Shown here: positions 12,651-29,013 of the stretch, piece by piece | Layout of the letters: every line of letters begins with the position of its first letter | Position numbering within the stretch: position 1 is the first letter of the stretch | Program-made: the position numbers and the translations under genes | The notes under the pieces: generated by a model | What the model was told of the DNA's origin: nothing | The model's database searches: none | The model's input: the letters and a program-made list of their open reading frames with translations, nothing else | From: Leptothoe kymatousa TAU-MAC 1615 | Lineage (GTDB): Bacteria > Cyanobacteriota > Cyanobacteriia > Phormidesmidales > Phormidesmidaceae | Reading direction: 5' to 3' | Length of the DNA: 64,000 nucleotides | Assembly (NCBI RefSeq): GCF_018739865.1 | Contig: NZ_JADOER010000004.1 | Span: 1,126,157 to 1,190,156 of the forward strand

Positions 12651-13442
12651 TTATTCAACATTGAAATGATGTTTGAGTTGAGTTTGCAGATCATCCAATG
12701 AACTGTTCAGCAAATCAAACACAGAAATTTGCTTAGGGTAGTACATCGAAACTAGCTGTTGGATTTGTTCATCCTCGGGGGGCATGGCCCCGCTAATTGT
12801 ATTCGCTACCTTGTCTGCCAAGCGCCCACTGCCAGCAACAACAGTGACCTTTCTGCCCAACTCCAGGTTGACTCGCATGTCCTTCAGCGATATTTGGCCA
12901 CCATTAATCAGTAAGGTCATGGTGGGGCTGGATCCCGCCAATGTCTCAGATAGGCCCGCAAGCCACCGGGACTCACTCCCCCAGGTTTTACCAGGAACTA
13001 GAAAAAAGTGAGTGTGGTGAGGTTCAAGTTCAGCCGGGGGATCGTCTGGATCTTCTATGGGTTGGGGGAGATCATCGCCGGGAAAAATAACCATATTAAG
13101 AGGCGCAACGCCTACCAAGTTAAACCGTCCCTGCACGTGGTTACGCGCGTGCCCCATCATATGAATGACCCCAGCATCAGTACCCCCGTCTAATACTGTG
13201 ATGTTTTGCCGCTGGGAAAATGCAGCCAGGGGACCATTAAAAAACTGGATTAGCTTAGCTTGGCTTTCAGGGGACATGAGACTGGCACCACCGATCACCA
13301 GCAAAGTGGGCGTAGGGCCATTGAGACCTATGCTTGATAGGGCATGGCCATAGGCCGTGTCAGTGTTAACCTTCAGAATTTTAGCCAGTTGCCCATTGGA
13401 AAACGTGTGTTCAGTAAGTCCATAGGCGGAAGTTTTGGGCAT
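12651..13442 (-). CDS. TRPM-type SLOG (LSDAT_prok) domain protein, predicted nucleotide-ligand sensor
   Basis: 263 aa, essentially one domain. Motifs in order: LLVIGGASLM (about 47-56), VLDGGTDAGVIHMMG (83-97), HHTHFFLVPGKTWGSES (142-158), LLINGGQISLKDM (177-189) and VVAGSGRLADKVA (201-213). This is the Rossmannoid SLOG fold as found at the N-terminus of TRPM channels and in its prokaryotic LSDAT relatives, which are predicted to bind nucleotide-derived ligands. AAGAGGGATC gives the ATG at 13442 a good ribosome-binding site. It lies downstream of, and on the same strand as, the SLATT gene at 13873-15462, a pairing known for predicted conflict systems. The C-terminal 45 residues after MPPEDEQIQQ look helical. 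No catalytic role should be assumed. Confidence 0.8.
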   Translation of the reverse strand: MPKTSAYGLTEHTFSNGQLAKILKVNTDTAYGHALSSIGLNGPTPTLLVIGGASLMSPESQAKLIQFFNGPLAAFSQRQNITVLDGGTDAGVIHMMGHARNHVQGRFNLVGVAPLNMVIFPGDDLPQPIEDPDDPPAELEPHHTHFFLVPGKTWGSESRWLAGLSETLAGSSPTMTLLINGGQISLKDMRVNLELGRKVTVVAGSGRLADKVANTISGAMPPEDEQIQQLVSMYYPKQISVFDLLNSSLDDLQTQLKHHFNVE

Positions 13443-13710
13443 TGCTGATCCCTCTTGAACAAAGGCGGCTAAGCGACATTTATTTTGTGGTTAACCCTTT
13501 GACATCCTTAAAATACCCTTATCATGTCAACCTTGCGTAAGGGTATCGCTGAAATGGCCTATTTTATGTATGAGCTTCCCCTATAAAGGCGCCATGCATT
13601 TAAAAACATGCCGGGTTTCAATTCTCTTTATAGCCGCTGCTTTGATGAATGTTTGATGTTAGCACCACTCATCCAAAGACAATAACTTTTACTAGGAGAA
13701 AACTCAGGGG

Positions 13711-13909
13711 TTAACAGGGCCTATGCCAAGTTTGTGCGCAAGCTCGGCATATTTAAGGAACTAACAGAGCCTATGCCAAATTTGTGCGCGCACGCTCGAC
13801 ATATTTAAGGAACTAACAGAGCCTATGCCAAGTTTGTGCGCAAGCTCGACATATTTAAGGAATTAACAGAGCCTATGCCAAATTTGTGCGCGCACGCTCG
13901 ACATATTTA
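13711..13909. repeat. Four tandem units (50/52/50/52 bp) that copy the 3' end of the SLATT gene
   Basis: Units start with ctatgcca at 13721, 13771, 13823 and 13873. Types alternate: A has tgtgcgcaagctcg and B has tgtgcgcgcacgctcg, making a 102-bp A-B segment present twice. The last B unit is the coding end of the SLATT-GH19 gene (stop at 13873-13875), and its 37 bp are repeated without change at 13771-13807. B contains the palindrome gtgcgcgcac. Confidence 0.92.
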
Positions 13910-15462
13910 GAGAACACATCCCAACCATGGTAACCACCATTCACTAGTTTGCGTACCCGTCGCCAATCGCCAGCACGGGCTGCCTCAGCCACCCCCCGCT
14001 CCTTAAAATAGCAAGTCAGAACCTGGGCAGAAATTTCTGGATCCATGGCTAGGTCTGGATTGTTTTCTAAATCTACCCCCAGCTTCTTACCGTAGGTTTT
14101 GTAGTTAGCTCGGCCAGTGAGTTGAATATATCCGCGACCGTGGTACTTGATGCCATCGCCAGGATTTACGTTGCCCAAGTCGGCCCTGTCTTCATAGCGT
14201 TTCCAATAGCTTTCACCGCCCCATTCATGGACAGGTTTAAATCCACCCGTTTCAATGCGAATGGTGGCCAGCAATCCGATCAGTACCGCATTGTCTAAAA
14301 TGTCGTATTTTTGCATGGCCGCCAAGATGCCAGGTAGATAGACCTTACAGTCATCTAGGGAGCATTCTAGGATGCTGGCAACTTCGTCTGGGGTAATGAG
14401 TTGCTTTACCTGGGTGGTGGTGGAAACACTGCTTTTTGCGGTGGCGGCGGTGCTTTTTTGCGCGCTCAAAAGGGTTTTGAGTGCTTTGAAGTCAACTGTT
14501 TCTTCCCATTCCAGGGCATGTTGCCCCAAGGGTGGCAGGGAACTGCTGGATGAAATCGTACGACTTGATGTAGCGCGAGATCGGCCAGCCGCTCCTCTGG
14601 ACGATGGCATTAGGGGTTGGATTTCAGGGACGGGATCAGCTGCAACCCCATCACTAACCGTTGTGGCCCCAGCGTTGACGCCGGTGCCCCCAGGCATGGA
14701 TATATCGAGTAAAGAGCCGGAATATTCCACATCTTCTGTTTGGGGCTGATAGGTTGCTTGTTGTGCCGCGGCTAGTTCGGCCCTTTCTAACTCCAGACGC
14801 TGAGCCCTTGCTTCCAATTCGCTATTGAGGCGCATTAATGCTTTTTCAGCGTTGTCCTTGGCCTCTTCAGCATCTTCCTTACTTTCGTCTTGTTTCTCTT
14901 CTAGGCGGGAGACGAAGCCTTCTACGTCTTTTTGGATGTAGGCTTCCACCCGCTGGGCAAATATCTTATACGCGTCGGAGTGTACCTTAAATTTGCGGTA
15001 GGGACCTGCCAGCTGCATAAACTGCCAGCCCTCGATCTTCATACTCTCTGCTGTGCTGCGATAGTTGCGATACTTATCTCCATGGCCAAAGAACTCTTCG
15101 ACGGCGGCAGAAATTGCTACGGCCTGACTAATGCCTAGGGCAATCCAACGAACTCTTGCATCCAGGGTGATGTTTTCACTTTTAAAGCCCACCATGGCGG
15201 GCACCAGCACACCGCCAATAATGGTGACCATCCGTAACCGAAAATGTTGGTTGCGTTCCCGCGTGGCCCGTCCCTCTAGCCACATCACCTGATCTAACCA
15301 ACGATTCTTAAGGAACTCCTTCCGCAACTCTGAAATCTCAAGTTTATCGATTAGCCCCCCTAGAGTTTGCTTGAGATAGTCGTTATAAGCATTTTTCTTG
15401 GCCATTTTGTATTTGAATTTAGATGCAGGGTGTATGCGTTTCGACAGGATATTGCGTAGCAT
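13873..15462 (-). CDS. SLATT (DUF4231) 2TM protein fused to a GH19/lysozyme-like domain
   Basis: 529 aa in three parts. Residues 45-180 match the SLATT/DUF4231 domain: FLKNRWLDQVMWLEGRATRE, then two hydrophobic segments (about 77-95 and 103-122), AISAAVEEFFGHGDKYRNYR and EGWQFMQLAGPY. Residues 180-240 are an Ala/Glu-rich coiled coil, followed by a Ser/Pro linker to about 350. Residues 355-529 resemble glycoside hydrolase 19 or phage-type lysozyme, with Glu404 in ATIRIETGGF as the likely acid and YHGRGYIQLTGRANY as the conserved block. SLATT domains are predicted membrane pore-formers activated by SLOG or SMODS partners, and a SLOG gene is next downstream. No signal peptide is seen, so how the wall-hydrolase half would reach peptidoglycan is unclear. 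An alternative start is the ATG at 15405; neither has a clear Shine-Dalgarno. Confidence 0.8.
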   Translation of the reverse strand: MLRNILSKRIHPASKFKYKMAKKNAYNDYLKQTLGGLIDKLEISELRKEFLKNRWLDQVMWLEGRATRERNQHFRLRMVTIIGGVLVPAMVGFKSENITLDARVRWIALGISQAVAISAAVEEFFGHGDKYRNYRSTAESMKIEGWQFMQLAGPYRKFKVHSDAYKIFAQRVEAYIQKDVEGFVSRLEEKQDESKEDAEEAKDNAEKALMRLNSELEARAQRLELERAELAAAQQATYQPQTEDVEYSGSLLDISMPGGTGVNAGATTVSDGVAADPVPEIQPLMPSSRGAAGRSRATSSRTISSSSSLPPLGQHALEWEETVDFKALKTLLSAQKSTAATAKSSVSTTTQVKQLITPDEVASILECSLDDCKVYLPGILAAMQKYDILDNAVLIGLLATIRIETGGFKPVHEWGGESYWKRYEDRADLGNVNPGDGIKYHGRGYIQLTGRANYKTYGKKLGVDLENNPDLAMDPEISAQVLTCYFKERGVAEAARAGDWRRVRKLVNGGYHGWDVFSKYVERARTNLA

Positions 15463-15959
15463 AGATGCTACTTGCGATTGGTGGCGCTATATGAAGAAGT
15501 ATGGAGATGAGGTGGCCTCCGCACAATACATAGAGGTGAGATAAACAGTATGGGTGACTTGGCTCAAGTTTACCCACGGATGCCCCTGTGACTTAAGCCA
15601 TTGATCGTAAATTACGGACTGTGTATTTCAACCATTTTCGACAATTTATTTAAGGTATTGTCCATATTGCGAAGCACTATACAAACTAGGACCCAATGTG
15701 TAGTGCAACTCAAAGGTAAACCGTATAACTTTGGAATCCCCCTGACTGATTTATAAAAATTAACCTATCAGCCAGTGTCCTTGATTGTGTGAGGGGGCCA
15801 AGACACTATGGTCTCGCGGTTTTAGGAGCTGCCAAGAAACGACTTCACGGGTTAAGCCTGAGGCGAATACTACAGGCTTGCTGTTTTCCTTAGATATTGA
15901 CGTGTTTGCAATTAGAGGGCATTTTTCGTTTTGTCAGGTTGTTTCGTCTACCAGCGCTT
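15463..15959. other. Divergent intergenic region with a degenerate MITE-B-like segment
   Basis: About 500 bp between the divergent SLATT and M15 genes, so it holds both promoters. Positions 15823-15880 begin aggagctgccaagaaac and then cttcacgggtta, matching the first 35-40 bp of the element seen at 51786 and 59930. The match then decays and no 3' end is recognisable. No gene is seen. Confidence 0.45.
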
Positions 15960-17144
15960 ATGGATGTGACTTTGAAAAAGCTTGAGGCTGACTATAGGTC
16001 GGCATTTGATGCTTGTGCTTTGCAGCCAGGGGTGGAGCCTACGGTGAGGGGGATTGTGGGACGCATGGTGCAGCTGAGGTCGCACTATGAAACCGTAGAA
16101 AAAGCCACCGGGGTGCCCTGGTGGTTTGTGGGTATTTTGCACTACAGCGAGTGGAATTTTCGGGAGCCTGGGCAGTTTGAGCGTGAGGTGACCAATGTAT
16201 TAATTGCTAAGAAATATCACCAGGCTAAGACGCGCACCTTGGGCGCATTTTTGTGGGGCTTTGATCTGTGGCATGGTTTTCGCGGCGGTGTTGGTAAGCA
16301 GTCCACCTGGGTGTGGAGTGGCACGACTGTGCTGAGTGAACCCACGGTGCGGGTAGGGGCGGCGGCGGTAGTGCTCTATCTCCAGCAGCAGCAGCTGATT
16401 GATATTGGCAATCAAAAAGCTGTTGAGCTATTGGTGTTGACAGACACCCTGTTTAAGTTACGTCCAGAACAGAGTGCGCGGCTGTCTGAGCAGGATAAAA
16501 TCCGAGTTGCTGCTGGGACAACGCTAGAGCTGCTCAGGGATAATTTGGATAAGCATGACCATGTGAAAATTCGTATCCCGGATGGGGTGCTGATTGGCCA
16601 GCATGATCGAAGAGATTGGTATGTCTATGCCCAGCACATTTGGTTGCGGGGGACCGAGCCCAATAATCACCCCAAGGATCCACCGGTGGAACCTGAGACA
16701 AAAATTGCCGAGAGAGATCGGGGACGTGCCATTGAGGTGCCTAAATTGGGCACGGTTTACCTGGGAGACCCCATTATCCCTAAGGGGAATTTTAGCTGGG
16801 CTGAAGCGACTAAAAATGGCGATCGCATTCCGGTGGATGGCACCATCGTTGACGGCATTGTCAAAATTGCCAAGGTGATGGAAGAGGTTCGAGAGTTGTT
16901 GGGCAATCGTCCGATTACGGTTACCTCCTGGTACCGTGACCCGGTCACCAATGGCCGCGTGGGGGGCAGTAGTAAGTCCCGCCACATGTCTGGAGATGCG
17001 GTAGATTTTTTTGTTAACGGCATTTCCCCATGGGATGTGAACCGTCAATTAGAACCGTGGTGGGGCAATCGAGGTGGTTTGGCCAGTGCCGCAACCTTTA
17101 CCCACATTGATGCACGGGGGTATGGTGCGCGGTGGGAATACTAG
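15960..17144 (+). CDS. Lysozyme-like domain fused to M15-type D,D-carboxypeptidase/endopeptidase
   Basis: 394 aa from the ATG at 15960; a TTG at 15897 would add 21 residues unlike the family. The N-terminal 170 residues (YETVEKATGVPWWFVGILHY, then RTLGAFLWGFDLWHGF) resemble the lysozyme-like domain of phage-derived muraminidases. The first catalytic Glu would be in LHYSEWNF. The C-terminal 110 residues carry the M15A zinc motif: SRHMSGDAVDF supplies His and Asp, FTHIDARG the last His, preceded by TSWYRDPVTNGRVGG. Together this is a two-headed peptidoglycan hydrolase acting on glycan and peptide. No signal peptide is visible. It is divergent from the SLATT-GH19 gene, so two cell-wall hydrolases share one promoter region. 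It ends 138 bp before the five-TIR gene. Confidence 0.82.
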   Translation: MDVTLKKLEADYRSAFDACALQPGVEPTVRGIVGRMVQLRSHYETVEKATGVPWWFVGILHYSEWNFREPGQFEREVTNVLIAKKYHQAKTRTLGAFLWGFDLWHGFRGGVGKQSTWVWSGTTVLSEPTVRVGAAAVVLYLQQQQLIDIGNQKAVELLVLTDTLFKLRPEQSARLSEQDKIRVAAGTTLELLRDNLDKHDHVKIRIPDGVLIGQHDRRDWYVYAQHIWLRGTEPNNHPKDPPVEPETKIAERDRGRAIEVPKLGTVYLGDPIIPKGNFSWAEATKNGDRIPVDGTIVDGIVKIAKVMEEVRELLGNRPITVTSWYRDPVTNGRVGGSSKSRHMSGDAVDFFVNGISPWDVNRQLEPWWGNRGGLASAATFTHIDARGYGARWEY

Positions 17145-17282
17145 GGGCGTCCAATTTAGTCGATCTAGATGTATCCTGCCCTGTCCGGGGGCTAGGATAC
17201 GTGGTTGAAACGCTAGTGCGCTCACTATCGTTACTCAGCTAAGCCCTGCAATTTTTGCTTTAAGTAAAGTGGCAACCATCTC

Positions 17283-20200
17283 ATGACGCAGCCTTCCGCA
17301 TCTTCCCAGGATGTTTTTATTTCCTATGGCAGGGCAGACAGTCGTCCGTTTGCCCGCAAGCTGAAAGATTGTTTGGTCGAGGCGGGGCTAAGGGTATGGT
17401 TTGATGTTGAGGCTATTTCCCTGGAAGGAGATTATCAACATCAGATTCAAGAGGGTATTGAAAAAGCTGATAATTTTCTGTTTGTTATTTCTCCCCACGC
17501 GGTTAATTCGCCCTATTGCGTACAAGAACTTGCGCTGGCATTGGCTTGGCACAAGCGCATTATTCCGCTGTTGCATATAGAGGAGATTAGTTTTGAAAGC
17601 TGGCAGCAGCAGCATCCAGAGGCTAATGAGGGGAGTTGGCGAACGGTTAAAAAGCAGGGTCGCCACAGTAGTTTTCAAAATATGCACCCGGACATTAGCA
17701 ACGTTAACTGGGTGTATTTTCGAGGGGGGATTGATGATTTTGATGAGGGTTTAGTCGAGCTAACGGCTATTTTGGGGCGACATCAGGGCTATGTGCGTCA
17801 CCATAGCCAGCTGTTGACCAAAGCGTTGAGATGGCAGCGCCAACAATGTCAGCCCAGTGATTTGCTGCCGGCAGGGGATTTGCCAGAGGCCGAGGCCTGG
17901 CTGAGAACACGATTTCAAGCGGAGCGGCAGCCCCCTTGCCTGCCGACGGATCTCCATTGTGCCTATATTACTGAGAGTCTGAAGGCGGCCCAGCACCAGA
18001 TGACCCAGGTGTTTATCTCCTATGGCGAAGGGGATCGGGCGATGCAGGAGAGGGTGCGCAATCGCCTGATGTTTGAGGGGATTACGGTTTGGGGGAATCC
18101 GGTGGCTATGTCGGGGGCAACAGATTGCCAGCAGGCAGTTCATCGGGGCATTGAGAAAGCCGATAATCTGCTGGTGTTGCTATCTCCTGACTATTTGGCA
18201 TCGCCCCATTGCCAGCAGCAGTTGGCCTATGCCTGCCGGTATAACAAGCGGGTGATTCCGTTGTTGTTGCAGGCTATGGAGGTGGCGACGCTGCCGGCTG
18301 ATCTGCGGATGGTGCCGTTTATTGACTTTTCATCCCTGGTGTCGGATATTCATTTTGACCGGGCGATGGGTGAGTTGACGCGCACCCTGCGGAGCTCGTC
18401 AGACTATGTGGAGCTTCATAAGCGTCTGTTGGTGCAGGCGTTGGCTTGGGAACGACAGGGGCGCGATCGCAAATTTCTGCTCCGCTCCGGTGCCTTTGCC
18501 GCTGCCCAGGCATGGCTGTCAGAGCCTAGCCCCACCGGGGGAGAGCCCACCGATTTCCACACCGCTTTTATCCAGGCCAGCCAAGGCATTAACCAGTTTT
18601 ATGATGCCTTTATTTCCTATGGTCGAGCTGATAGCAAAGCCTTTGCCACTCAACTATGCCAGCAATTGACCGACCAGGGATTTCAGGTTTGGTTTGATCA
18701 AAACGATATCCCCTTGGGCGTAGACTTCCAGGCCCAAATCAATGACGGCATTGAGAAAAGCCATAATTTTATCTTTATCATCGCTCCCCATGCCGTGAAC
18801 TCCCCTTACTGTGCCAAGGAAATTGCCCTGGCACTGAAATATAACAAACGGATTATTCCGATTTTGCACGTGGAAGAGATCGGTTATTCCACCTGGAAAG
18901 CACGGAATCCCCAGGGGAGCCCAGACCAGTGGCGCGGCTTTAAGGCGAAGGGGAAACATTCCAGTTTTCCTAACATGCATCCTGAGATTGGCAAAATCAA
19001 CTGGATCCATGGCCGAGAAAGCTTGGATGACTGGGATGCGATGATCACAGGTTTGGTGGAACTGTGCCACCGCCATGAAGACTACGTGCATCAGCACACG
19101 GAGCTGTTGATGCGGGCATTGGCCTGGGAGCGCCACCAAAACCAAAGTTCCTATCTACTCATGGGTGAGGATCGTTTACGGTCACAAAACTGGCTGTTAA
19201 CAGAGTTTTCTGCCGAGCAACCCCCCTGTATCCCCAGCTTGCTCCAGGCAACCTTTATTGCCGAGAGTGTCAAAATGGCCGACGGGGGCATGACCCAGGT
19301 CTTTCTTTCCTATGCCGAAGAAGATTTTGCCACGCGGGAAATTGTGCGCTATCGCCTGCTCCAGGCAGGGGTGACCGTATGGACTAATACGGTGGATATT
19401 CGCATGGGGGAAGATTTTGAGTCGGCCATTCAACGGGGCATCGAAGAAGCCGACAACGTGGTTTATTTAATATCGCAAGCATCCCTAGCATCGGACTATT
19501 GCCAAATGGAGATCGACCAGGCACTAGATCTCAATAAGCGCATTATCCCCATGCTGGTGGAGGCCATTGATGTCAGCCGTTTGCCCGATACCATTCGAAA
19601 AATTCAGTTTATTAACCTGGCGGATAACAGAGATGCCAACGACTTGGATCGAGATTTTGCCGAGCTACTGCGCACCATTCGCCAAGATGCGCCCTACTAT
19701 AATCAGCATAAACAGCTTTTAGTGCGAGCCCTTAAGTGGGAGCGACAAAAACAAAATCCTAGCTTATTGTTGCAGCGGCGCATGCAGGATACTTATTTTG
19801 CCTGGGCTCAAAACGCCAACGGACGATCCGTGGGGGCGGCGCTGCCATTGCAGCTACTGTTCTTAGAAGCCAGCCAGATGCAGTCGCCGGATCAAACCCT
19901 GGGGGTATTTTTTGTGCACCATGGTGATGATTTTGACTTCTCTCGTCGGTTGAATGAGACTCTTTTGGTGCAAGGTAAAAGTGCCTGGCTATCCCCCGAA
20001 GGGGCCGCTGGGGAAGCCGATCGCTGGGACGATACGCGGCAGCTGATGGACAATGCCGAAAATGTTGTTTTTATCCTCTCCCCCAGCTCCGTGCGATGTC
20101 AGGCTTGTTTAGACCAGCTGCACTATGCCCAGTTTCAACAAAAACGCATACTGCCCGTTGTCTATCGGGATGTACTCAAGTCCACGGTGCCAGACAGTAT

Positions 20201-21755
20201 AAAAACTCTGCCTTGGAGTGATTTTCGCCGTCACGGCGGGGATTTTTTGGTGAATTTTGGTGAGTTGTTTCGCACCCTGGAGAGCGACCCTTACCATGTG
20301 CGAGCCCATACGCGCTTATTGGTAAAGGCCTCTGAATGGGAAACAGCGCACCGGGATGATAGTTTCTTGCTGCGGGGAAATGACCTGGCGGAGTCCCAAC
20401 GCTGGCTGCACCAGACAAAGGATAAAAAACCGCCGGTGACGGATCTCCAACGGCGCTATATCAAAGCCAGTCAGGCCTTGCCCTTGAGGAAGCTTAAGGC
20501 CCGTGCGGTGGCCATGGCAACGGCGGTGGCCGCCGGTACCGTTTCAGTGGTGAGGCTGTTTGGGGGGCTGCAACCTCTAGAGATTGCAGCCTACGATCAG
20601 CTTTTGCGATGGCGCCCCAATGAGGTGGCCCAGGATGAGCGTTTGTTGATTGTGAAAGTTGACGCGGCAAGTGGTGAGTGGTTGCGACAACAAATGGTCG
20701 AGGGTCGTTATCAGCCTGGCATTGGCACGATTCCTGAAAATGCGCTGTCAGAGGCGATTCATGTGCTTAACAGCTATGATGCTCGATTGATTGGCCTAGA
20801 CGTGTTTCGAGATTTTCCGGCCCAGGGAGCCCTGGGGAATGACTTGGCTTGGACGGATAATCTGTTGGGTATCTGTCAGACGGCGAGCGACCAGGTGAGT
20901 GATATTGGCAGTGAAATGCCTGTTGAGCGGGTGGGATTTGCCAACTTTTTGCTGGATGGTGGCAATACTGTGCGTCGGCACTATTTAACCCAGTGGCTGG
21001 AGCGGGACAGTGCCTGTGTGCCGGAGGAATCTTTTACGTTGTTGTTGGCTAAAAAATACCTTGAGGCGGAGGGGATTGCCTATGGGAATACGGGCAATGA
21101 AAATCAGCTGGAAACCATTTCCTTGGGGGATGTGGTGATTCCGGATCTTTATGGTAATGGTACGGCCTATAGCGCCATGACCGAAGGCTGGGGGTGGAGT
21201 AGTTTGGTCGATTACCAAACCTTGATTAATTTTAGGACCTATGGCGATCCTCAGACCCAAGCACGAGGGGCTCGGCTGAAGGATTTTGCCCCCCAGGTTT
21301 CGTTGGCAGCGGTGATTCGCGATCAGGTGGATCCGGCGCTGATTCGAGATCGTGTTGTTTTGATTGGGTATACCGATTTTAGCGATCGCAACTCCGACGA
21401 CTTCAACACCCCCTATGGCGATTCAATTCCTGGGGTTTACCTCCACGGCCAAATGCTTAGTCAGTTAATCAACGCCGCCTTAGAGGACCGGCCCCTAATT
21501 CGCTGGTGGCCCTTTTGGGGAGAATCCAGTTGGATTCTATTGTGGTCTAGCATTGGCGGTGTAATCTTTTGGCGATTGGTGCAGCCGTTACCGGTGTTAG
21601 CAGCTAGCCTTGGATCCCTCGGGCTATTAACCCTAGCCTGCTACGGGTTCATGGTGGGGCCAGTGGTTTGGGTACCCTGGGTACCGACCCTGGTTGGTTG
21701 GGGCTTAACTAGCGGTGCAGTGGGCTATATGACCTATCGCTTACGAAAAGGGTGA
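17283..21755 (+). CDS. Five tandem TIR domains plus CHASE2 and C-terminal transmembrane segments
   Basis: 1490 aa. TIR modules start near residues 10, 240, 440, 670 and 873, each followed by a conserved linker of the form LLxxALxWExxxxxxxxLLxG. Modules 1 and 3 share a 30-residue insert ending HSSFxNMHPxI; modules 2 and 4 start MTQVFxSY and lack it, so the order is A-B-A'-B'-C. The NADase Glu after the conserved Cys is present in modules 1, 3 and 4 (E82, E513, E743) but is Gln in 2 and 5 (Q313, Q945). After a hydrophobic helix near 1073-1090, residues 1095-1400 look like CHASE2, an extracytoplasmic sensor (LEIAAYDQLLRWRP, later DRVVLIGYTDFSDRNSDDF and IPGVYLHGQML). Two or three TM helices close the protein. 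TIR domains cleave NAD or make signal nucleotides, or act as scaffolds; the trigger here is unknown. The TPR gene follows after 6 bp. Confidence 0.88.
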   Translation: MTQPSASSQDVFISYGRADSRPFARKLKDCLVEAGLRVWFDVEAISLEGDYQHQIQEGIEKADNFLFVISPHAVNSPYCVQELALALAWHKRIIPLLHIEEISFESWQQQHPEANEGSWRTVKKQGRHSSFQNMHPDISNVNWVYFRGGIDDFDEGLVELTAILGRHQGYVRHHSQLLTKALRWQRQQCQPSDLLPAGDLPEAEAWLRTRFQAERQPPCLPTDLHCAYITESLKAAQHQMTQVFISYGEGDRAMQERVRNRLMFEGITVWGNPVAMSGATDCQQAVHRGIEKADNLLVLLSPDYLASPHCQQQLAYACRYNKRVIPLLLQAMEVATLPADLRMVPFIDFSSLVSDIHFDRAMGELTRTLRSSSDYVELHKRLLVQALAWERQGRDRKFLLRSGAFAAAQAWLSEPSPTGGEPTDFHTAFIQASQGINQFYDAFISYGRADSKAFATQLCQQLTDQGFQVWFDQNDIPLGVDFQAQINDGIEKSHNFIFIIAPHAVNSPYCAKEIALALKYNKRIIPILHVEEIGYSTWKARNPQGSPDQWRGFKAKGKHSSFPNMHPEIGKINWIHGRESLDDWDAMITGLVELCHRHEDYVHQHTELLMRALAWERHQNQSSYLLMGEDRLRSQNWLLTEFSAEQPPCIPSLLQATFIAESVKMADGGMTQVFLSYAEEDFATREIVRYRLLQAGVTVWTNTVDIRMGEDFESAIQRGIEEADNVVYLISQASLASDYCQMEIDQALDLNKRIIPMLVEAIDVSRLPDTIRKIQFINLADNRDANDLDRDFAELLRTIRQDAPYYNQHKQLLVRALKWERQKQNPSLLLQRRMQDTYFAWAQNANGRSVGAALPLQLLFLEASQMQSPDQTLGVFFVHHGDDFDFSRRLNETLLVQGKSAWLSPEGAAGEADRWDDTRQLMDNAENVVFILSPSSVRCQACLDQLHYAQFQQKRILPVVYRDVLKSTVPDSIKTLPWSDFRRHGGDFLVNFGELFRTLESDPYHVRAHTRLLVKASEWETAHRDDSFLLRGNDLAESQRWLHQTKDKKPPVTDLQRRYIKASQALPLRKLKARAVAMATAVAAGTVSVVRLFGGLQPLEIAAYDQLLRWRPNEVAQDERLLIVKVDAASGEWLRQQMVEGRYQPGIGTIPENALSEAIHVLNSYDARLIGLDVFRDFPAQGALGNDLAWTDNLLGICQTASDQVSDIGSEMPVERVGFANFLLDGGNTVRRHYLTQWLERDSACVPEESFTLLLAKKYLEAEGIAYGNTGNENQLETISLGDVVIPDLYGNGTAYSAMTEGWGWSSLVDYQTLINFRTYGDPQTQARGARLKDFAPQVSLAAVIRDQVDPALIRDRVVLIGYTDFSDRNSDDFNTPYGDSIPGVYLHGQMLSQLINAALEDRPLIRWWPFWGESSWILLWSSIGGVIFWRLVQPLPVLAASLGSLGLLTLACYGFMVGPVVWVPWVPTLVGWGLTSGAVGYMTYRLRKG

Positions 21756-21761
21756 TTTTCC

Positions 21762-22811
21762 ATGTTTCAATGCTTAAGCCTCAGCCAGTCAAGCTGGCCC
21801 AAACGCTTTAAATTTCAGCGGCGCTGGCGTTTAATGCTGGCTGTGGCTGTGGGGCTGGGCATCGTCGCCCCCATAGTGCGGCCACCAGCCGCAGAGGCGG
21901 CATGTTTCTTTTGGCAGGCCTGTGCGCGGCGGCGGGGCCAAGCGTCCAATACCCGCGCCGGGGGCAAACGGTCCGGGCGTATTGTCGGTGGGAACGACGC
22001 GTCTGTGCCCTATGTGATTTCCCCCCGCAATGCCTGGATTCGCAATCCTAACCCCAGCCAGCCCTACACAATCCGCTGGAATCCAGTGGCAGATGCCCAC
22101 CGCTATACCGTCAGGATTTGGCGTTGGACCTTCGAGCGCGATCGCCCCGAGACGGCCCTATGGGAAACAATAACCGTGGACGATGCGAATGAGCTGCCGT
22201 TTCCAGTGCTGGTGCCCTTAGACCCAGGTAACTACTATTCCATTGAGGTGGTTACCGATACGGGGGTATCGTCTGATTTGGATGAAGGATACTACGAGTC
22301 GGGCTTTCAACTGTTGTTTGATGAAGACTATGAAGACCTAAGATTTCAGCTCGATCAACTGGCCATCGATTCACCGGATGCGGCGCTTCCCCTAGCGGCA
22401 CAACAAGATGTAGAAGACCTTGCCCTCGCCCAGGCCGGTGTCTTCTTTTTAAAAGAAATGTACACTGACGCCCTAGATTTGTTGCAGGTACTAGCCGATA
22501 GAGAAATCGCCTCAGATTTGGTCTACACCGCCCTGGGCGATACTTACAGCCAAAGTGGTCTCAATCAGCTGGCCATTGAATCCTATGGGCAAGCCTTAGC
22601 CCTTGCTGTTCAAAATACAGATAGTCTGAGCGAAGCGATCATCTGCGTGAGTTTGGCCGATGTCTATGCCACGTTAGGTCTTTTTGAGAAAACTCTCCAA
22701 CATCTGCGTCAGGCACGCGAAGCCTATGCGCAATTGGATGAATCAACCGAGGTTTCCCGGTTAGACCGTCGGATTGAGGTTATTTCTGCACGCTTAGTCA
22801 GACAGCGTTAG
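21762..22811 (+). CDS. Secreted protein with Ig/FN3-like and TPR domains
   Basis: 349 aa. An N-terminal hydrophobic segment (LMLAVAVGLGIVAPIV, then PPAAEAACF) looks like a long signal peptide with cleavage near AEA-A. A beta-rich FN3-like part follows (YTIRWNPVADAHRYTVRIWR to NYYSIEVVTDTG). From about residue 205 there are helical TPR repeats, such as LVYTALGDTYSQSGLNQLAI and the next unit IICVSLADVYATLGLFEKTL. It begins 6 bp after the CHASE2-TIR gene, so the two are almost surely co-transcribed; CHASE2 lies outside the membrane, so contact between the two is plausible. This type of secreted TPR protein is common next to CHASE2 genes in cyanobacteria. No enzyme motif is seen. Confidence 0.75.
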   Translation: MFQCLSLSQSSWPKRFKFQRRWRLMLAVAVGLGIVAPIVRPPAAEAACFFWQACARRRGQASNTRAGGKRSGRIVGGNDASVPYVISPRNAWIRNPNPSQPYTIRWNPVADAHRYTVRIWRWTFERDRPETALWETITVDDANELPFPVLVPLDPGNYYSIEVVTDTGVSSDLDEGYYESGFQLLFDEDYEDLRFQLDQLAIDSPDAALPLAAQQDVEDLALAQAGVFFLKEMYTDALDLLQVLADREIASDLVYTALGDTYSQSGLNQLAIESYGQALALAVQNTDSLSEAIICVSLADVYATLGLFEKTLQHLRQAREAYAQLDESTEVSRLDRRIEVISARLVRQR

Positions 22812-23904: not shown

Positions 23905-26900
23905 ATGCGAATGTTAGACGGCGATGTGACAACAACGACTAATTCAATTGATGTTGTTAATGGCTTAAAGGCTGAGTATTACAACAACAAAGATTTTACG
24001 GATCTGATCCTGGCTCGTACAGATGCCATTGTGGACTTCGATTGGGATAATGGTTCTCCTGATGCTGAGATCGTAGCAGACACCTTTTCCGTGCATTGGA
24101 CAGGACAAATAGAACCGCTGTTTTCTGAAACCTATACCTTTGAAACCAGTTCGGATGATGGTGTTCGTCTATGGGTCAACAATGAGCTGATTATCGACAA
24201 CTTTTATGAGCAAGCCACAACTGCTCACAGCGGCACCATCACCCTGGAGGCAGGAAAGCGATACGATATCCGCCTTGATTATTATGAAAACTACGGGGGT
24301 GCCAACGCTCAACTACGCTGGTCCAGCGCTAGTCAACCCCTGGAAGTCATTCCTCAGTCACAGCTATATAGCTCTGCTGTAGTTATGGCTGAGCCTCCCG
24401 TTGAGGGTAGTGGTAATGGCCTTGCGGGAGAGTATTACCACAACAAAAACTTCACTGACCTGGCATTTACGCAAACCGATGCCACAGTGGACTTTAACTG
24501 GGATGCGGGTTCCCCTGACCCATCCATTGAAAAAGATACCTATTCCATTCGTTGGACGGGTCGAGTAGAGCCTCGTTACTCAGAAACCTACACCTTTTCC
24601 ACCAGTTCAGATGATGGTGTTCGTCTATGGGTAAATGATCAACTGATTATCGATAAGTTTGTTGAGCAGGCCGCCACCATTCATAGCGGAACAATTACCC
24701 TAGAAGCTGGCCAACAGTACGATATTCGCCTGGACTATTACGAAAATTATGGTGGCGCATCGGCTGAACTTTGGTGGTTAAGTGACAGTCAGTCCCTGGA
24801 AATTATTCCCCAGTCTCAGCTCTACAGCACGGCTGTAACAGAGCCTGAACCTCCCGTTGAGCCCGAGCCTCCCGTTGCCCCTGAGCCAGAACCCGAGCCA
24901 GAACCTGAGCCTCCCGTTGCCCCAGAGCCAGAACCTGAGCCAGAACCTGAGCCTGAGCCAGAACCACCTGTAGAACCAGAACCACCTGTAGAACCAGAAC
25001 CTCCTGTAGAACCAGAACCTCCTGTAGAACCAGAACCTCCTGCAGAACCAGAACCACCTGCAGAACCAGAGCCGCCTACCGAACCAGAACCGCCTATGGA
25101 TGGTGAGGGTAATGGTCTTAAGGCGGAGTACTACAACAACAAAGACTTTACCGATTCGGTATTCACCCGCACCGATGCCACAGTGGATTTTAACTGGGAT
25201 GCAGGTTCCCCTGACCCATCCATTGAAAAAGATACCTATTCCATCCGTTGGACGGGTCGAGTAGAGCCGCGTTACTCAGAAATCTACACCTTTTCCACCA
25301 GTTCAGACGACGGCGTGCGGCTGTGGGTGAATGATGAACTGATTATCGACAAGTTTGTTGAGCAGGCCGCCACCATTCATAGCGGAACAATTACCCTAGA
25401 AGCTGGCCAGCAGTACGATATTCGCCTGGACTATTACGAAAATTATGGTGGTGCATCGGCTGAACTTTGGTGGTTAAGTGACAGTCAGCCCTTGGAAATC
25501 ATTCCCCAGTCTCAGCTCTACAGCACGACTGTAACAGAGCCAGAACCTCCCGTTGAACCAGAACCCCCCGTTGAACCAGAACCTCCCGTTGAACCGGAAC
25601 CTCCCGTTGAACCGGAACCTCCCGTTGAACCAGAACCTCCCGTTGAACCGGAACCTCCCGTTGAACCCGCGCCGGAACCCGAACCCGCGCCTCCCGTTGA
25701 ACCAGAACCTCCCGTTGAACCAGAACCTCCCGTTGAACCAGAACCTCCCGTTGAACCGGAACCTCCCGTTGAACCGGAACCTCCCGTTGAACCAGAACCT
25801 CCCGTTGAACCTGGGCCTTCAACAGAAGTTAACGGCCTCAAAGGAGAGTATTACAACAACCAGGACTTCACTGAGCTGGCCCTCACTCGTACAGATGAGA
25901 ATGTGGACTTTAATTGGGGAACCCGGTCTCCCTATGCAACCCTTGAACCCGACTCATTCTCAGTACGCTGGACCGGTGAAATTGAACCTCGCTATTCAGA
26001 AACCTATACCTTCCAGACCTTCTCAGATGACGGTGTGCGGCTGTGGATAAACGATGAGCTAATCATTGACCAACTGGTTCCCCAATCTCCCACTCTCCAC
26101 AATGGCACCATTACCTTAGACGCAGGCCAACGGTATAACATCCGTTTGGACTACATTGAGGTTAATGGTGGGGCCAGTGCTGAATTAATGTGGTCAAGTA
26201 ACAGTCAGCCCCTGGAAAAAGTTCCTCAGTCCCAACTATTTAGTCAATCCGTACCTGCCCCCGAGCCTCCCCCTCCGGGACCTTTGTTTCCTGATCCTGA
26301 TCCAGTTGATCCTACAGCTGTAGAGATTGAGCATGTCTTCACCGTGAGTGAAAACGTAGTAGCCCTAAAGATCAACACTGGAGAAATCGCCCGTGGTAAA
26401 CAGGTTGACTATGTGCCAGCAGCAGATGACATTATCCAGGATGACGGCTGGGTCGTTCGGAACAACGAAACCATCGGCTGGCAGATAGCGGGTGAGCCCA
26501 ACAAAATTTGGCTGGTGGACGAATATAGCGGTCCTGGGCTAAACACCGCTTGGGCAGACAATGTTAGCAACTACGAGATTGTTGCTGCCGATGGTTCTAT
26601 CATCAGACCCACCAATGTTTATCGCAAGAGCAAAGTGGACGACATGGCCCAGACTGATATCTGGGAGTTTGAGTGGCCCATGGAGCACACTGTATACGTT
26701 GAACTGCCTGATGGTCTCACAGAGGGAGAAAGCTACCAGCTCAACTTTGCCGGTAATTTCTTGGCGGACAGTGAGTTTGTTTATGAACCTGAGGCAACCC
26801 GGAGCGATGCAGTGCATGTTTCTCATCTCGGCTTTGACCCCGGTGATGGGTCGAAGGTGGCTTTCCTATCTACCTGGATGGGCAACGGGGGTGGTCTGGA

Positions 26901-29013
26901 CTATGGGGCTGGCCAAACGTTCTGGCTAATTGATGCAGCCACAGGGGAAAAGGTGTACGAAGGGCAAACAACCCTTTCTAAATCGGCCAGCGAGGCGGAT
27001 GACCACCAAGGGCGAAACCATAGTGGCACCGATGTGTTCATGATGGATTTCAGTGACTTTGATACCCCAGGTCAGTACTCGGTCTATGTGGACGGTGTGG
27101 GTACCTCCTACGAGTTTGAAATTGGCGAAAATACCTGGCGTGATGCATTCTATGTGTCGGCCCGAGGTTTGTTCCACCAGCGTAGCGGCATCGAGCTAGA
27201 GGCCCCCTACACAGACTACAGTCGCCCCCGGTCGTTCCATCCTCAGGATGGGGTGACGGTATATCAGTCGACGGTGCCATTGATGGACACAAATATGGGC
27301 CTGAGTGGCGGGTTGGATGCCTTTGAAGCTTTGCAGGCCACACGCACCGACGAGGTGGTCACTGATGCCTGGGGGGGATGGATGGATGCCGGGGATTGGG
27401 ATCGCCGCACTCCCCACATGGAGGCCTCTCGTTCATTGTTAGAACTGGTGGAACTCCATGGAGACTATTTTGAGTCTGTTAATCTTGATCTGCCTGAGTC
27501 AGGCAACAACTTGCCTGATGTTTTAGATGAGGCCCTGTGGGGACTGGATGTGTTCCGCCGTTTACAAAAAGAAGACGGTGGTATCCCTGGGGGCATTGAA
27601 TCTGCGGGGCATCCCATCTGGTTTGAGGGTAGCTGGCAGGAGTCTCAAACGGTGATGGCCTATGGTCCTGGTATCTGGTCTAGCTATTTCTATGCGGGGG
27701 TGGCGGCCAGGGCGGCCTATGTGCTGAAAGATTACGATACTGACCTAGCCCAAACCTACCAGGACAGTGCTTTGCAGGCGATGGAATGGGCCAATGCTGA
27801 ACTGACGAAAGACCCCAATGGTCGATATCATCAGATTTATGACCAGCGTAATCTAGCGGCAGCAGAACTCTACCGCTTAACGGGGGATCAACAGTGGCAC
27901 GATCTGTTTTTGGAAACGACGGTTTATTCAGACCCCAATGCTAGAACCTCTATCTGGCAAAGCCACGACCATCTCCAGGCGGCATTTGTCTATGGTCGAA
28001 CTGAACGCCCTGTGGATGGGACCATTCAGCAGAATGCGATTAATTCTGTTTCCCGAGAGGCGAATGAACAAATCTCCATTATGGAGAATACGGGCTATAA
28101 GTGGAATCTGGATCCCTATTCTCCCATTGGTTGGGGCGATGGTTTCGGTGCTCCCAAAACAGATATTCTTTTGCGGGCCCATGCGCTGACGGGAGATAGT
28201 ACCTACCTAGATGCAAGTGTTCTGGCCAGCCAGTTTTCGGCAGGTGCGAATCCGGATAATATGGTGTATACCACGGGCATTGGTTACAACAACCCGGACA
28301 TGCCGTTAATTTTGGATATGCGGACGACGGGGCAGGAGGCGCCGGCAGGGATTACGGTGTATGGTCCCATTGACTTGCAAAATCCCAATGGCTATGGCGG
28401 CGACTGGAGCTGGGCGATTGACCTGTTTACCACCGACGATAGTAGTCCGACTCCCTGGGAGTTTCCTACGGCTGAGGCCTATTTTGATTCGTTCTACTAT
28501 GTGCCAGTGACTGAATTTACGATTAATCAGTCCCTTGGCCCAACGGCCTATACCTGGGGCTATCTGGCTGCTTCGGATGGTGTTGATGGGGAGACGGCTA
28601 CTGCCCAAGGCAATGCAGGCAACAACACGTTGTCAGGCACTGGAGTGAATAGTGTTATTAATGGTACTCAACCGTTAGATATGACACCGGGACAGGGTGA
28701 AGTTGATACTCTCATTGCAAGTAACGGGAATGATCTCTTTGTTCTCGGTAATGTTGGCCGCAGCTTCTATGATGATGGCGATGCCACATTGCCCGGCTTG
28801 GATGATTATGCCCTTATCCAAGGGTTTAACTTAGCTCAAGGAGACCGGATTCAACTCCATGGCACCGTTGATGACTACACATTGGGAGCGTCCCCCAATG
28901 GAGTACCTGCTGGTACAGCTATTTTCTCTCAGACTGATGATGTATCTGAGTTGATTGCTGTACTAGAGGATACGTCGCCCAATGGCCTGATGGGTGCCCT
29001 TGTCTTTGCCTAA
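23905..29013 (+). CDS. Giant secreted GH9 glycoside hydrolase with four PA14 domains
   Basis: 1702 aa. Four PA14-type carbohydrate-binding beta-barrels begin near residues 20, 170, 403 and 643; each has SDDGVRLWVNxxLIID and LRLDY-like strands. Pro-Glu-rich linkers follow PA14-2 and PA14-3. A CelD_N-type Ig domain spans about 800-960, then a GH9 (alpha/alpha)6 catalytic domain about 965-1565, with the catalytic base in GGWMDAGDWDRR and the acid Glu about 1537 in VPVTEFTINQS. The last 130 residues (DTLIASNGNDLFVLG, FYDDGD, DDYALIQGF) match a C-terminal module common on cyanobacterial proteins exported by type I secretion. No N-terminal signal peptide exists, which agrees. It likely cleaves beta-1,4-glucan outside the cell, either self-made exopolysaccharide or plant/algal cellulose. 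Followed by a strong hairpin. Confidence 0.92.
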   Translation: MRMLDGDVTTTTNSIDVVNGLKAEYYNNKDFTDLILARTDAIVDFDWDNGSPDAEIVADTFSVHWTGQIEPLFSETYTFETSSDDGVRLWVNNELIIDNFYEQATTAHSGTITLEAGKRYDIRLDYYENYGGANAQLRWSSASQPLEVIPQSQLYSSAVVMAEPPVEGSGNGLAGEYYHNKNFTDLAFTQTDATVDFNWDAGSPDPSIEKDTYSIRWTGRVEPRYSETYTFSTSSDDGVRLWVNDQLIIDKFVEQAATIHSGTITLEAGQQYDIRLDYYENYGGASAELWWLSDSQSLEIIPQSQLYSTAVTEPEPPVEPEPPVAPEPEPEPEPEPPVAPEPEPEPEPEPEPEPPVEPEPPVEPEPPVEPEPPVEPEPPAEPEPPAEPEPPTEPEPPMDGEGNGLKAEYYNNKDFTDSVFTRTDATVDFNWDAGSPDPSIEKDTYSIRWTGRVEPRYSEIYTFSTSSDDGVRLWVNDELIIDKFVEQAATIHSGTITLEAGQQYDIRLDYYENYGGASAELWWLSDSQPLEIIPQSQLYSTTVTEPEPPVEPEPPVEPEPPVEPEPPVEPEPPVEPEPPVEPEPPVEPAPEPEPAPPVEPEPPVEPEPPVEPEPPVEPEPPVEPEPPVEPEPPVEPGPSTEVNGLKGEYYNNQDFTELALTRTDENVDFNWGTRSPYATLEPDSFSVRWTGEIEPRYSETYTFQTFSDDGVRLWINDELIIDQLVPQSPTLHNGTITLDAGQRYNIRLDYIEVNGGASAELMWSSNSQPLEKVPQSQLFSQSVPAPEPPPPGPLFPDPDPVDPTAVEIEHVFTVSENVVALKINTGEIARGKQVDYVPAADDIIQDDGWVVRNNETIGWQIAGEPNKIWLVDEYSGPGLNTAWADNVSNYEIVAADGSIIRPTNVYRKSKVDDMAQTDIWEFEWPMEHTVYVELPDGLTEGESYQLNFAGNFLADSEFVYEPEATRSDAVHVSHLGFDPGDGSKVAFLSTWMGNGGGLDYGAGQTFWLIDAATGEKVYEGQTTLSKSASEADDHQGRNHSGTDVFMMDFSDFDTPGQYSVYVDGVGTSYEFEIGENTWRDAFYVSARGLFHQRSGIELEAPYTDYSRPRSFHPQDGVTVYQSTVPLMDTNMGLSGGLDAFEALQATRTDEVVTDAWGGWMDAGDWDRRTPHMEASRSLLELVELHGDYFESVNLDLPESGNNLPDVLDEALWGLDVFRRLQKEDGGIPGGIESAGHPIWFEGSWQESQTVMAYGPGIWSSYFYAGVAARAAYVLKDYDTDLAQTYQDSALQAMEWANAELTKDPNGRYHQIYDQRNLAAAELYRLTGDQQWHDLFLETTVYSDPNARTSIWQSHDHLQAAFVYGRTERPVDGTIQQNAINSVSREANEQISIMENTGYKWNLDPYSPIGWGDGFGAPKTDILLRAHALTGDSTYLDASVLASQFSAGANPDNMVYTTGIGYNNPDMPLILDMRTTGQEAPAGITVYGPIDLQNPNGYGGDWSWAIDLFTTDDSSPTPWEFPTAEAYFDSFYYVPVTEFTINQSLGPTAYTWGYLAASDGVDGETATAQGNAGNNTLSGTGVNSVINGTQPLDMTPGQGEVDTLIASNGNDLFVLGNVGRSFYDDGDATLPGLDDYALIQGFNLAQGDRIQLHGTVDDYTLGASPNGVPAGTAIFSQTDDVSELIAVLEDTSPNGLMGALVFA
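24841..25100 (+). repeat. Pro-Glu-rich linker repeat, first block
   Basis: About 85 codons of EPEPPV, PEPE and EPEPPA units between PA14-2 and PA14-3 of the GH9 protein. The DNA repeat is 15-18 bp (gaaccagaacctcctgta and variants). Such linkers are flexible spacers and prone to slippage in replication and assembly. Confidence 0.9.
25534..25817 (+). repeat. Pro-Glu-rich linker repeat, second block
   Basis: About 95 codons of EPEPPV between PA14-3 and PA14-4. The unit is 18 bp (gaaccagaacctcccgtt), more uniform than the first block, which suggests more recent expansion. A short APEPEPAP interruption occurs near 25667-25690. Confidence 0.9.

Follow-up and report, generated by a model that had tools for sequence, protein, structure and literature searches.

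SLATT-endolysin fusions beside TIR and SLOG genes in cyanobacteria: a candidate programmed-lysis system

We analysed a 64,000-nucleotide stretch of the genome of the cyanobacterium Leptothoe kymatousa TAU-MAC 1615 (contig NZ_JADOER010000004.1, positions 1,126,157 to 1,190,156; hereafter the window) and in it a block of five genes at positions 12651–22811. From left to right these encode a SLOG protein and a SLATT-GH19 fusion, both on the minus strand, and then, on the plus strand, a LYSN-M15 protein, a five-TIR/CHASE2 protein and a TPR protein. LYSN, like MID and PH3000 below, is a working name coined in the present analysis. An earlier reading of the letters alone (the sequence-only reading) had placed SLOG, a SLATT-GH19 fusion, M15 and five TIR domains with CHASE2 in these genes. 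The open reading frames (ORFs) were found where it had put them, and Pfam and PHROGs searches bore out all of these domains.

The SLATT-GH19 protein (13873–15405, minus strand; 510 amino acids) matches Pfam DUF4231/SLATT (6e-27) and Glyco_hydro_19 (1.5e-7) and exceeds the NCBIfam SLATT_1 cut-off (3.7e-29); a Pfam SLATT_1 search of its own genome gave no match and was flagged as uninformative. Its ORF extends up to 15462, and comparison of ortholog starts makes the ATG at 15405 the likely start. Alignment and hydropathy place the two-helix SLATT membrane domain at 14848–15405, with hydrophobic segments at residues 57–75 and 88–106 and basic residues on both outer flanks. The GH19 module (13876–14397) belongs to the PHROGs endolysin family phrog_181 (2.3e-47), and its nearest solved structure in a profile search of PDB is the PWe2 endolysin 9ms7 (2.6e-29). 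Glu385 and Glu405, which we take to be the GH19 acid pair, are invariant in 10 of 10 aligned rows, and both align with glutamates of the PWe2 endolysin.

Divergently from this gene runs that of the LYSN-MID-M15 protein (15960–17144, plus strand; 394 amino acids), whose ORF opens at 15897 and whose likely start, again from ortholog starts, is the ATG at 15960. The intergenic region (15406–15959) is likely a shared control region of the two genes; its alignment revealed no clear conserved motif. The peptidase M15 module (16845–17111) matches Pfam Peptidase_M15_3 (2e-18) and the PHROGs endolysin family phrog_894 (5e-21), and the motifs SRHxxGDAVDF and FTH are kept in all six M15-type rows. The protein lacks a signal peptide, and no hydrophobic segment was found in it or in its counterpart from Leptolyngbya PCC 6406. 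The sequence-only reading had described it as ‘lysozyme/M15’; the M15 part stands, but no family search supports a lysozyme in the N-terminal part. That part, LYSN (15972–16412), was delimited by alignment and by relatives on viral contigs, and it has no family match in Pfam, PHROGs or NCBIfam. A viral relative of it, L145, likewise matched nothing in these three databases or in PDB. Six aligned viral relatives carry HxxES where the window protein has HYSEW, in which the Glu is kept.

The SLOG protein (12651–13442, minus strand; 263 amino acids) is of the TRPM type. It matches Pfam LSDAT_prok (1.8e-53) and LSDAT_euk (2e-6), and phmmer against PDB returned TRPM2 chanzyme chains (9.4e-6). The LSDAT/SLOG part of TRPM2 binds ADP-ribose (ADPr), and we propose the window protein as a sensor of a signal derived from nicotinamide adenine dinucleotide (NAD). 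The five-TIR/CHASE2 protein (17283–21755, plus strand; 1490 amino acids) is a putative membrane receptor from Pfam, PADLOC and hydropathy: Pfam finds TIR_2 in five stretches and CHASE2 (20538–21560; 1.5e-47), the latter flanked by hydrophobic segments. At the position that we take to be catalytic, the alignment has Glu in TIR 1 (17310–17576), TIR 3 (18603–18869) and TIR 4 (19296–19616), and Gln in TIR 2 (18006–18326) and TIR 5 (19905–20222). In three sister five-TIR proteins, TIRs 1–4 all carry Glu (12/12), TIR 2 included, and TIR 5 has the same Gln (3/3). Elsewhere Glu occupies this position in 18 of 18 TIRs of 3xTIR-CHASE2 proteins, in 43 of 45 of TIR-WD40 proteins and in 11 of 12 of other TIR proteins. 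Only 6 bases separate the TIR-CHASE2 gene from the downstream TPR gene (21762–22811, plus strand), whose product, assigned from Pfam, has an N-terminal hydrophobic segment and, from locus comparison, is a genus-level accessory.

The five-gene order is kept in three of seven same-genus genomes (G004, G005 and G007; loci L013, L014 and L016), with an RRM gene and a gene that we take from its sequence to be carB on the same side of the block as in the window. G002 has the block in two halves, each at contig ends. In G006 SLOG starts one contig, LYSN-M15, TIR-CHASE2 and TPR start another, and SLATT-GH19 was not found. From G003 just SLOG and a 133-amino-acid SLATT-GH19 piece, both where a contig ends, were recovered; a full-length LYSN-M15 was not found there. 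G001 yielded just a 125-amino-acid M15 frame, which lies at the start of a contig. Identity within the genus is 67–78% for the block proteins and 92–94% for carB; the G003 piece, at 92%, is the exception. Vertical inheritance could suffice for synteny within the genus alone. In a wider set of 59 genomes (own included), some part of SLATT-GH19 was matched in 38, mostly SLATT alone or GH19 alone, and 10 have a full-length LYSN-M15 ortholog. A SLATT gene adjoins LYSN-M15 divergently in 7 of these 10 (G000, G004, G005, G007, G013, G016 and the contig-cut G024); the remaining three, G002, G006 and G038, have LYSN-M15 at most 600 bases from a contig end. The flanks in G013, which is Leptolyngbya PCC 6406, are unlike those of the genus, and a 3xTIR-WD40 gene adjoins its SLATT-GH19.

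To follow SLATT itself, named genomes were scanned with a SLATT alignment, and the best 79 of 152 relatives were taken as loci, with flanks of up to 10 kb on each side, cut by contig ends. Judged by record titles the loci are cyanobacterial, except for one from Planctomycetota and one from Chlorobi. Domain labels at the loci were assigned with hidden Markov models (HMMs) that had themselves been built on sequences of the window and of this same locus set. The locus sets overlap and were not summed (L060 is G005, L061 G004, L062 G007, L063 G002, L064 G013, L071 G373, L072 G024, L075 G038, L079 G405 and L126 G049).

With these local HMMs, SLATT was found fused to hydrolases in four ways: SLATT-GH19, SLATT-GH24, SLATT-C39 and SLATT-C39-GH19. 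The GH19, M15, GH24, C39 and PH3000 modules each match a PHROGs endolysin family, among them phrog_181, phrog_894, phrog_7 and phrog_10051; PH3000 matches phrog_3000, whose function is given there as unknown, and the endolysin family phrog_33083. Nine Nostocales and Phormidium loci (L065–L071, L073 and L074) have SLATT-GH24 followed by LYSN-PH3000, with SLOG at seven of the nine and TIR at five. The TIR protein is 3xTIR-CHASE2 in L065, L066, L067 and L070 and TIR-WD40 in L074; in L071 a TIR gene lies about 13 kb away on the same contig. FEG, YPDP (YKDP in one) and TIGWG are kept in all nine GH24 fusions. In L065 the SLOG, SLATT-GH24, LYSN-PH3000 and TIR genes run in one direction together with a DUF928 gene and a conserved ORF of about 111 amino acids. 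This ORF lies between SLATT-GH24 and LYSN-PH3000 in all nine loci (L065:11534–11869) and has no Pfam family; it is possible that it encodes a regulator or an immunity protein. A CHAT-TPR gene stands beside TIR-CHASE2 in L066 (L066:1189–3963), and TPS/ShlB genes lie on the SLOG side of the L065 block (L065:3926–8199); these may be a linked surface system.

Other lineages combine the same parts differently. The Moorena loci (L079 and L081) have SLATT-GH19 between two 3xTIR-WD40 genes, and Pantanalinema (L137) has SLOG, SLATT-X, SLATT-C39-GH19 and 3xTIR-WD40, a set that is identical in G065 (L044). Scytolyngbya (L126) has SLATT-C39 followed by a GH24 gene, without TIR. L094 and L100 have SLOG and an unfused SLATT, with C39-GH19, C39 and TIR-WD40 encoded nearby as genes of their own, and SLATT is unfused at the Microcystis and Xenococcaceae loci, two of the Microcystis loci having unfused SLATTs alongside TPR-S and 3xTIR-WD40. 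Upstream of SLOG and SLATT-GH19, L076 encodes a 1053-amino-acid protein that contains TPR-S and another SLATT domain (L076:199–3360). Close pairs with TIR occur at further copies too: TIR matches lie 1.2–1.3 kb from the second SLOGs of G002, G004 and G005, which we count in favour of the reading proposed below, and the distance to a TIR match is 0.8 kb for the second SLATT of G013 and 1.1 kb for that of G405. Some SLATT proteins have long C-terminal parts with no clear Pfam family (L044:8875–10383, L137:2955–4376, L043:7989–9611 and L042:8559–9731), and that of L043 has a weak match to a PHROGs endolysin; these parts are perhaps further effector modules.

A hydrolase fusion is present at 22 of the 79 SLATT loci. 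LYSN lies nearby at 15 of these 22 and at 1 of the 57 unfused loci, namely L072, where SLATT is cut by the contig end (Fisher 5e-10, uncorrected for kinship, as are the tests below). LYSN thus goes with hydrolase fusion. On the SLATT tree the fusion label needs eight changes, at least six of them forced by the starred branches. With the two contig-cut rows removed there are at least seven gains or losses of fusion, and the kind of fusion changes at least four times among the fused rows. DUF4231 was matched in 57 of 386 surveyed genomes and in none of 14 control genomes. Among 29 DUF4231 places above 90 bits, six are fused to a recognised hydrolase, one more is contig-cut, and three more exceed 400 amino acids with unassigned extensions. 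All but two of the 29 lie within the examined regions or the window, and those two have open frames below 240 amino acids.

Relatives were also sought in viruses and plasmids. The SLATT-alignment scan of viral contigs gave one locus, L143, a contig of 70,892 bases with a terminase. Here TIR-FHA (264 amino acids), SLATT (194) and PG_binding-PH3000 (267) are encoded consecutively (L143:2547–4788), the first two genes overlapping. Upstream of this row is a gene whose product weakly matches Erf-like annealing proteins. A LYSN-M15 scan of viral contigs gave 15 loci; the match is to LYSN in 14 of them and to M15 in the remaining one. In a phage collection, distant SLATTs occur in 23 records, from Staphylococcus and Streptococcus phages. 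SLATT-GH19 is matched by 116 plasmid records, and among the matches listed (25 of 116) it is the GH19 region alone that is matched.

The neighbours of the window block are carB, the RRM gene and ABC transporter genes; phage genes are not among them. Further along the window, at 23905–29013, a 1702-amino-acid protein combines a GH9 cellulase part with four PA14 stretches and long Pro-Glu repeats; on the corresponding side of its block, L060 has a TPS secretion protein.

We tentatively propose that the block is a programmed-lysis system made of a TIR-made signal, a SLOG sensor, a SLATT pore and endolysin modules; we hold this reading at a little under an even chance. What the sequences show is gene order, fusions, motifs and the absence of N-terminal export segments; each causal step is our inference. 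A stimulus would be sensed by CHASE2 in the TIR protein, or by the WD40 repeats of its relatives, and the TIR domains would thereby be brought together. Those TIRs that have the catalytic-position Glu would then cut NAD+ to an ADP-ribose-type signal. The LSDAT SLOG, related in sequence to TRPM2, would bind this signal and switch on its SLATT neighbour. SLATT, with its two helices, would open the inner membrane in the manner of a holin, and the SLATT-fused endolysin module and LYSN-M15, which has no export signal, both with conserved motifs, would reach and cut peptidoglycan. The cell would lyse, most likely ahead of phage maturation, so that kin would be protected. In effect a phage holin-endolysin pair would have been set under a Thoeris-like trigger. 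Slightly more doubtful is the broader claim that a bacterial immune or programmed-death system acquired lysis enzymes from phages, joined them to a SLATT pore and came to control them by TIR-made NAD signals that a TRPM2-type SLOG senses. Its lysis module would be exchangeable (GH19, GH24, C39 or C39-GH19, with M15 or PH3000 as partner), and a virus would carry a minimal TIR-SLATT-endolysin version.

Several observations weigh against programmed lysis as proposed. Both SLATT termini are probably cytoplasmic, so the route of a tethered hydrolase to the wall is the hardest point. The hydrolase might cross the membrane through a large lesion of the holin type, or the C-terminal part might itself be passed across. 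LYSN may only bind, to judge from its sequence: it has no known family, its motif Glu is gone from the copies in Nostocales and Phormidium, and the viral relatives have an extra stretch that the shortened LYSN lacks. The single LYSN-PH3000 examined, that of L065, contains a hydrophobic segment in its interior (residues 127–145). Structure models are poor for both SLATT-GH19 (mean predicted local distance difference test score, pLDDT, 55.2) and LYSN-M15 (57.0), and a PDB fold search with the latter model gave nothing at E<0.2 and weak SH3-like matches only, a hint from the model that MID is SH3-like. With poor models and empty family and fold searches, ‘lysozyme-like’ is a guess at the fold of LYSN.

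The surroundings also count against it. TIR lies in view of 12 of 22 fused and 18 of 57 unfused loci (Fisher p 0.07), and SLOG, in view of 50 of the 79 SLATT loci, is at 15 of 22 fused and 35 of 57 unfused (p 0.61). Because neither is clearly commoner near fused SLATT, TIR and SLOG go with SLATT generally more than with the fusion. No TIR is in view at 10 of the 22 fused loci and no SLOG at 7 of the 22, some of the contigs being short; no TIR was found within 17.5 kb in G016, 20.6 kb in Scytolyngbya or 15.8 kb in UBA11370 (L093). The window block adjoins housekeeping genes, and the TPR label, scanned across the loci, appears only in same-genus loci.

The same machinery could instead serve developmental or environmental lysis in filaments, cells being sacrificed for breakage, hormogonium release or nutrient recycling. 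CHASE2 would then read an external signal, and the system would have no anti-phage role. Leptolyngbya, Nostoc, Anabaena, Calothrix and Moorena are filamentous, and it is mostly these genera that supply the named fused loci, the SLATT of Microcystis and Xenococcaceae being unfused. The window block stands at a genus-conserved place, and CHASE2 is termed a small-molecule receptor domain in one paper (PMC8195603). The habit, however, is taken from genus names, and the patchy spread, fast divergence, module swapping and viral-contig copy suit a conflict system better, so we regard a developmental role as unlikely, though not far-fetched. It is improbable, in our judgement, that the endolysin modules no longer cut and are wall-binding or decoy parts through which SLATT senses wall damage or which interfere with phage lysis. 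The shortened LYSN, its Glu lost in Nostocales, and the awkwardness of a tethered cytoplasmic hydrolase would agree with this, but the motifs are intact in the aligned rows (10 of GH19, 9 of GH24 and 6 of M15), and the type of enzyme has been swapped while its enzyme nature was kept.

Chance clustering of accessory genes with no functional link had been left standing as an alternative by the sequence-only reading. TIR genes are common in some genomes: across 14 of them, TIR_2 was matched 4 to 36 times per genome. That TIR is not clearly commoner at fused SLATT, and that synteny within the genus could be vertical, also speak for chance. Against it, five of seven lineages, by our own grouping, have TIR no more than about 10 kb from the fused gene (yes: the window genus, PCC 6406, Nostocales, Moorena and G065; no: Scytolyngbya and G016), other contig-cut loci being left out. 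At per-lineage chances of 0.04, 0.09 and 0.15, set by eye from the TIR_2 counts per genome, the binomial values are 2e-6, 1e-4 and 1.2e-3; with L093 as a miss (five of eight) they are 5e-6, 3e-4 and 2.9e-3. The concentration of LYSN at fused loci, the direct fusions and the unlike contexts outside the genus also argue against chance. Homologs are not scattered singly. In several families of cyanobacteria these genes are found together time and again, and SLATT occurs as fusions with GH19, GH24, C39 and C39-GH19; chance clustering is thereby unlikely, and we rate it as very improbable. A wall/membrane response driven by nucleotide signals, also put forward by the sequence-only reading, would fit these sequence data best. 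We give scarcely any credence to a toxin-like or contact-dependent weapon whose released hydrolases hit neighbouring cells. Genes with TPS secretion domains lie near some blocks (L060 and L065), but a similar gene was grouped in just 10 of 27 loci, the three LYSN proteins examined have no N-terminal hydrophobic segment, and SLATT is in print as a predicted membrane effector.

Programmed lysis of the kind we propose shares parts with several known systems. Burroughs et al. are said to have predicted SLOG-SLATT effector pairs in 2015. The window likewise has an LSDAT SLOG beside SLATT; unlike such pairs, its SLATT carries an endolysin domain and adjoins a LYSN-type partner and a multi-TIR receptor. 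A phage holin-endolysin cassette likewise joins a two-helix membrane protein to modules of the GH19, GH24, C39 and M15 endolysin families, but the block is host-chromosomal, lies beside TIR and SLOG, and has the membrane part and endolysin in one chain. Nor is it set among phage genes, viral contig L143 being the exception. ThsA of Thoeris has a SLOG-type sensor, and the block resembles Thoeris in combining TIR with such a sensor, the presumed catalytic Glu being present in three of the five window TIRs. No ThsA family was among the PADLOC matches of the five window proteins; PADLOC returned nothing for the SLOG or M15 protein and two weak, unrelated matches for SLATT-GH19. The window TIRs score 121.2 bits against the NCBIfam model of Thoeris type III ThcB4, below the cut-off of 220, and no CBASS CD-NTase family was found in the five window proteins with Pfam or PADLOC. 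These sequence tests place the block outside both Thoeris and CBASS. TIR defence systems known to us act through NAD loss or nucleotide-gated effectors.

The following comparisons draw on the accessible parts of the papers cited. SLATT is a predicted nucleotide-responsive pore or effector in NTP-dependent conflict systems (Kaur et al. 2020, PMC7159879). The same source describes a predicted bacterial conflict system whose EAD1-linked effectors include lysozyme and papain-like wall peptidases; these attack the wall as here but follow another adaptor logic, and a SLATT fusion is not mentioned in those parts. In Thoeris a TIR-made messenger from NAD+ activates a cell-killing effector (PMC9122126). 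TIR and transmembrane proteins of the P2-like phage AC1 protect E. coli C (PMC9122126), a TIR with membrane partners as here, with the wall hydrolase absent from the description available there. Firmicute phages have TIR-SLATT gene pairs, with SLATT proposed as a membrane effector regulated by ADPr derivatives (PMC9503650); TIR adjoins SLATT as in the block, and an endolysin module is not mentioned in the parts accessible. A literature search found no paper with both whole words SLATT and endolysin, most subscription papers being outside its coverage, and among the papers listed by further searches none dealt with such a fusion. The view of the neighbourhood as an undescribed unit holds in part: co-localisation recurs, but the TPR gene is confined to the genus and TIR-SLATT and SLOG-SLATT pairing are already in print. 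Links among TIR, SLOG and SLATT, and wall-attacking effectors elsewhere, are already in print; what would be new here is the SLATT-endolysin fusion as a putative kind of effector.

If the proposal of programmed lysis is true, directed wall lysis by interchangeable phage-type endolysins mounted on SLATT would be a new effector class. SLATT, a predicted effector in the accessible parts of the papers cited above, would gain an output that can be tested directly. A prokaryotic TRPM-type SLOG would also be tied to TIR signalling and would be a possible source of the ADP-ribose sensor of TRPM2.

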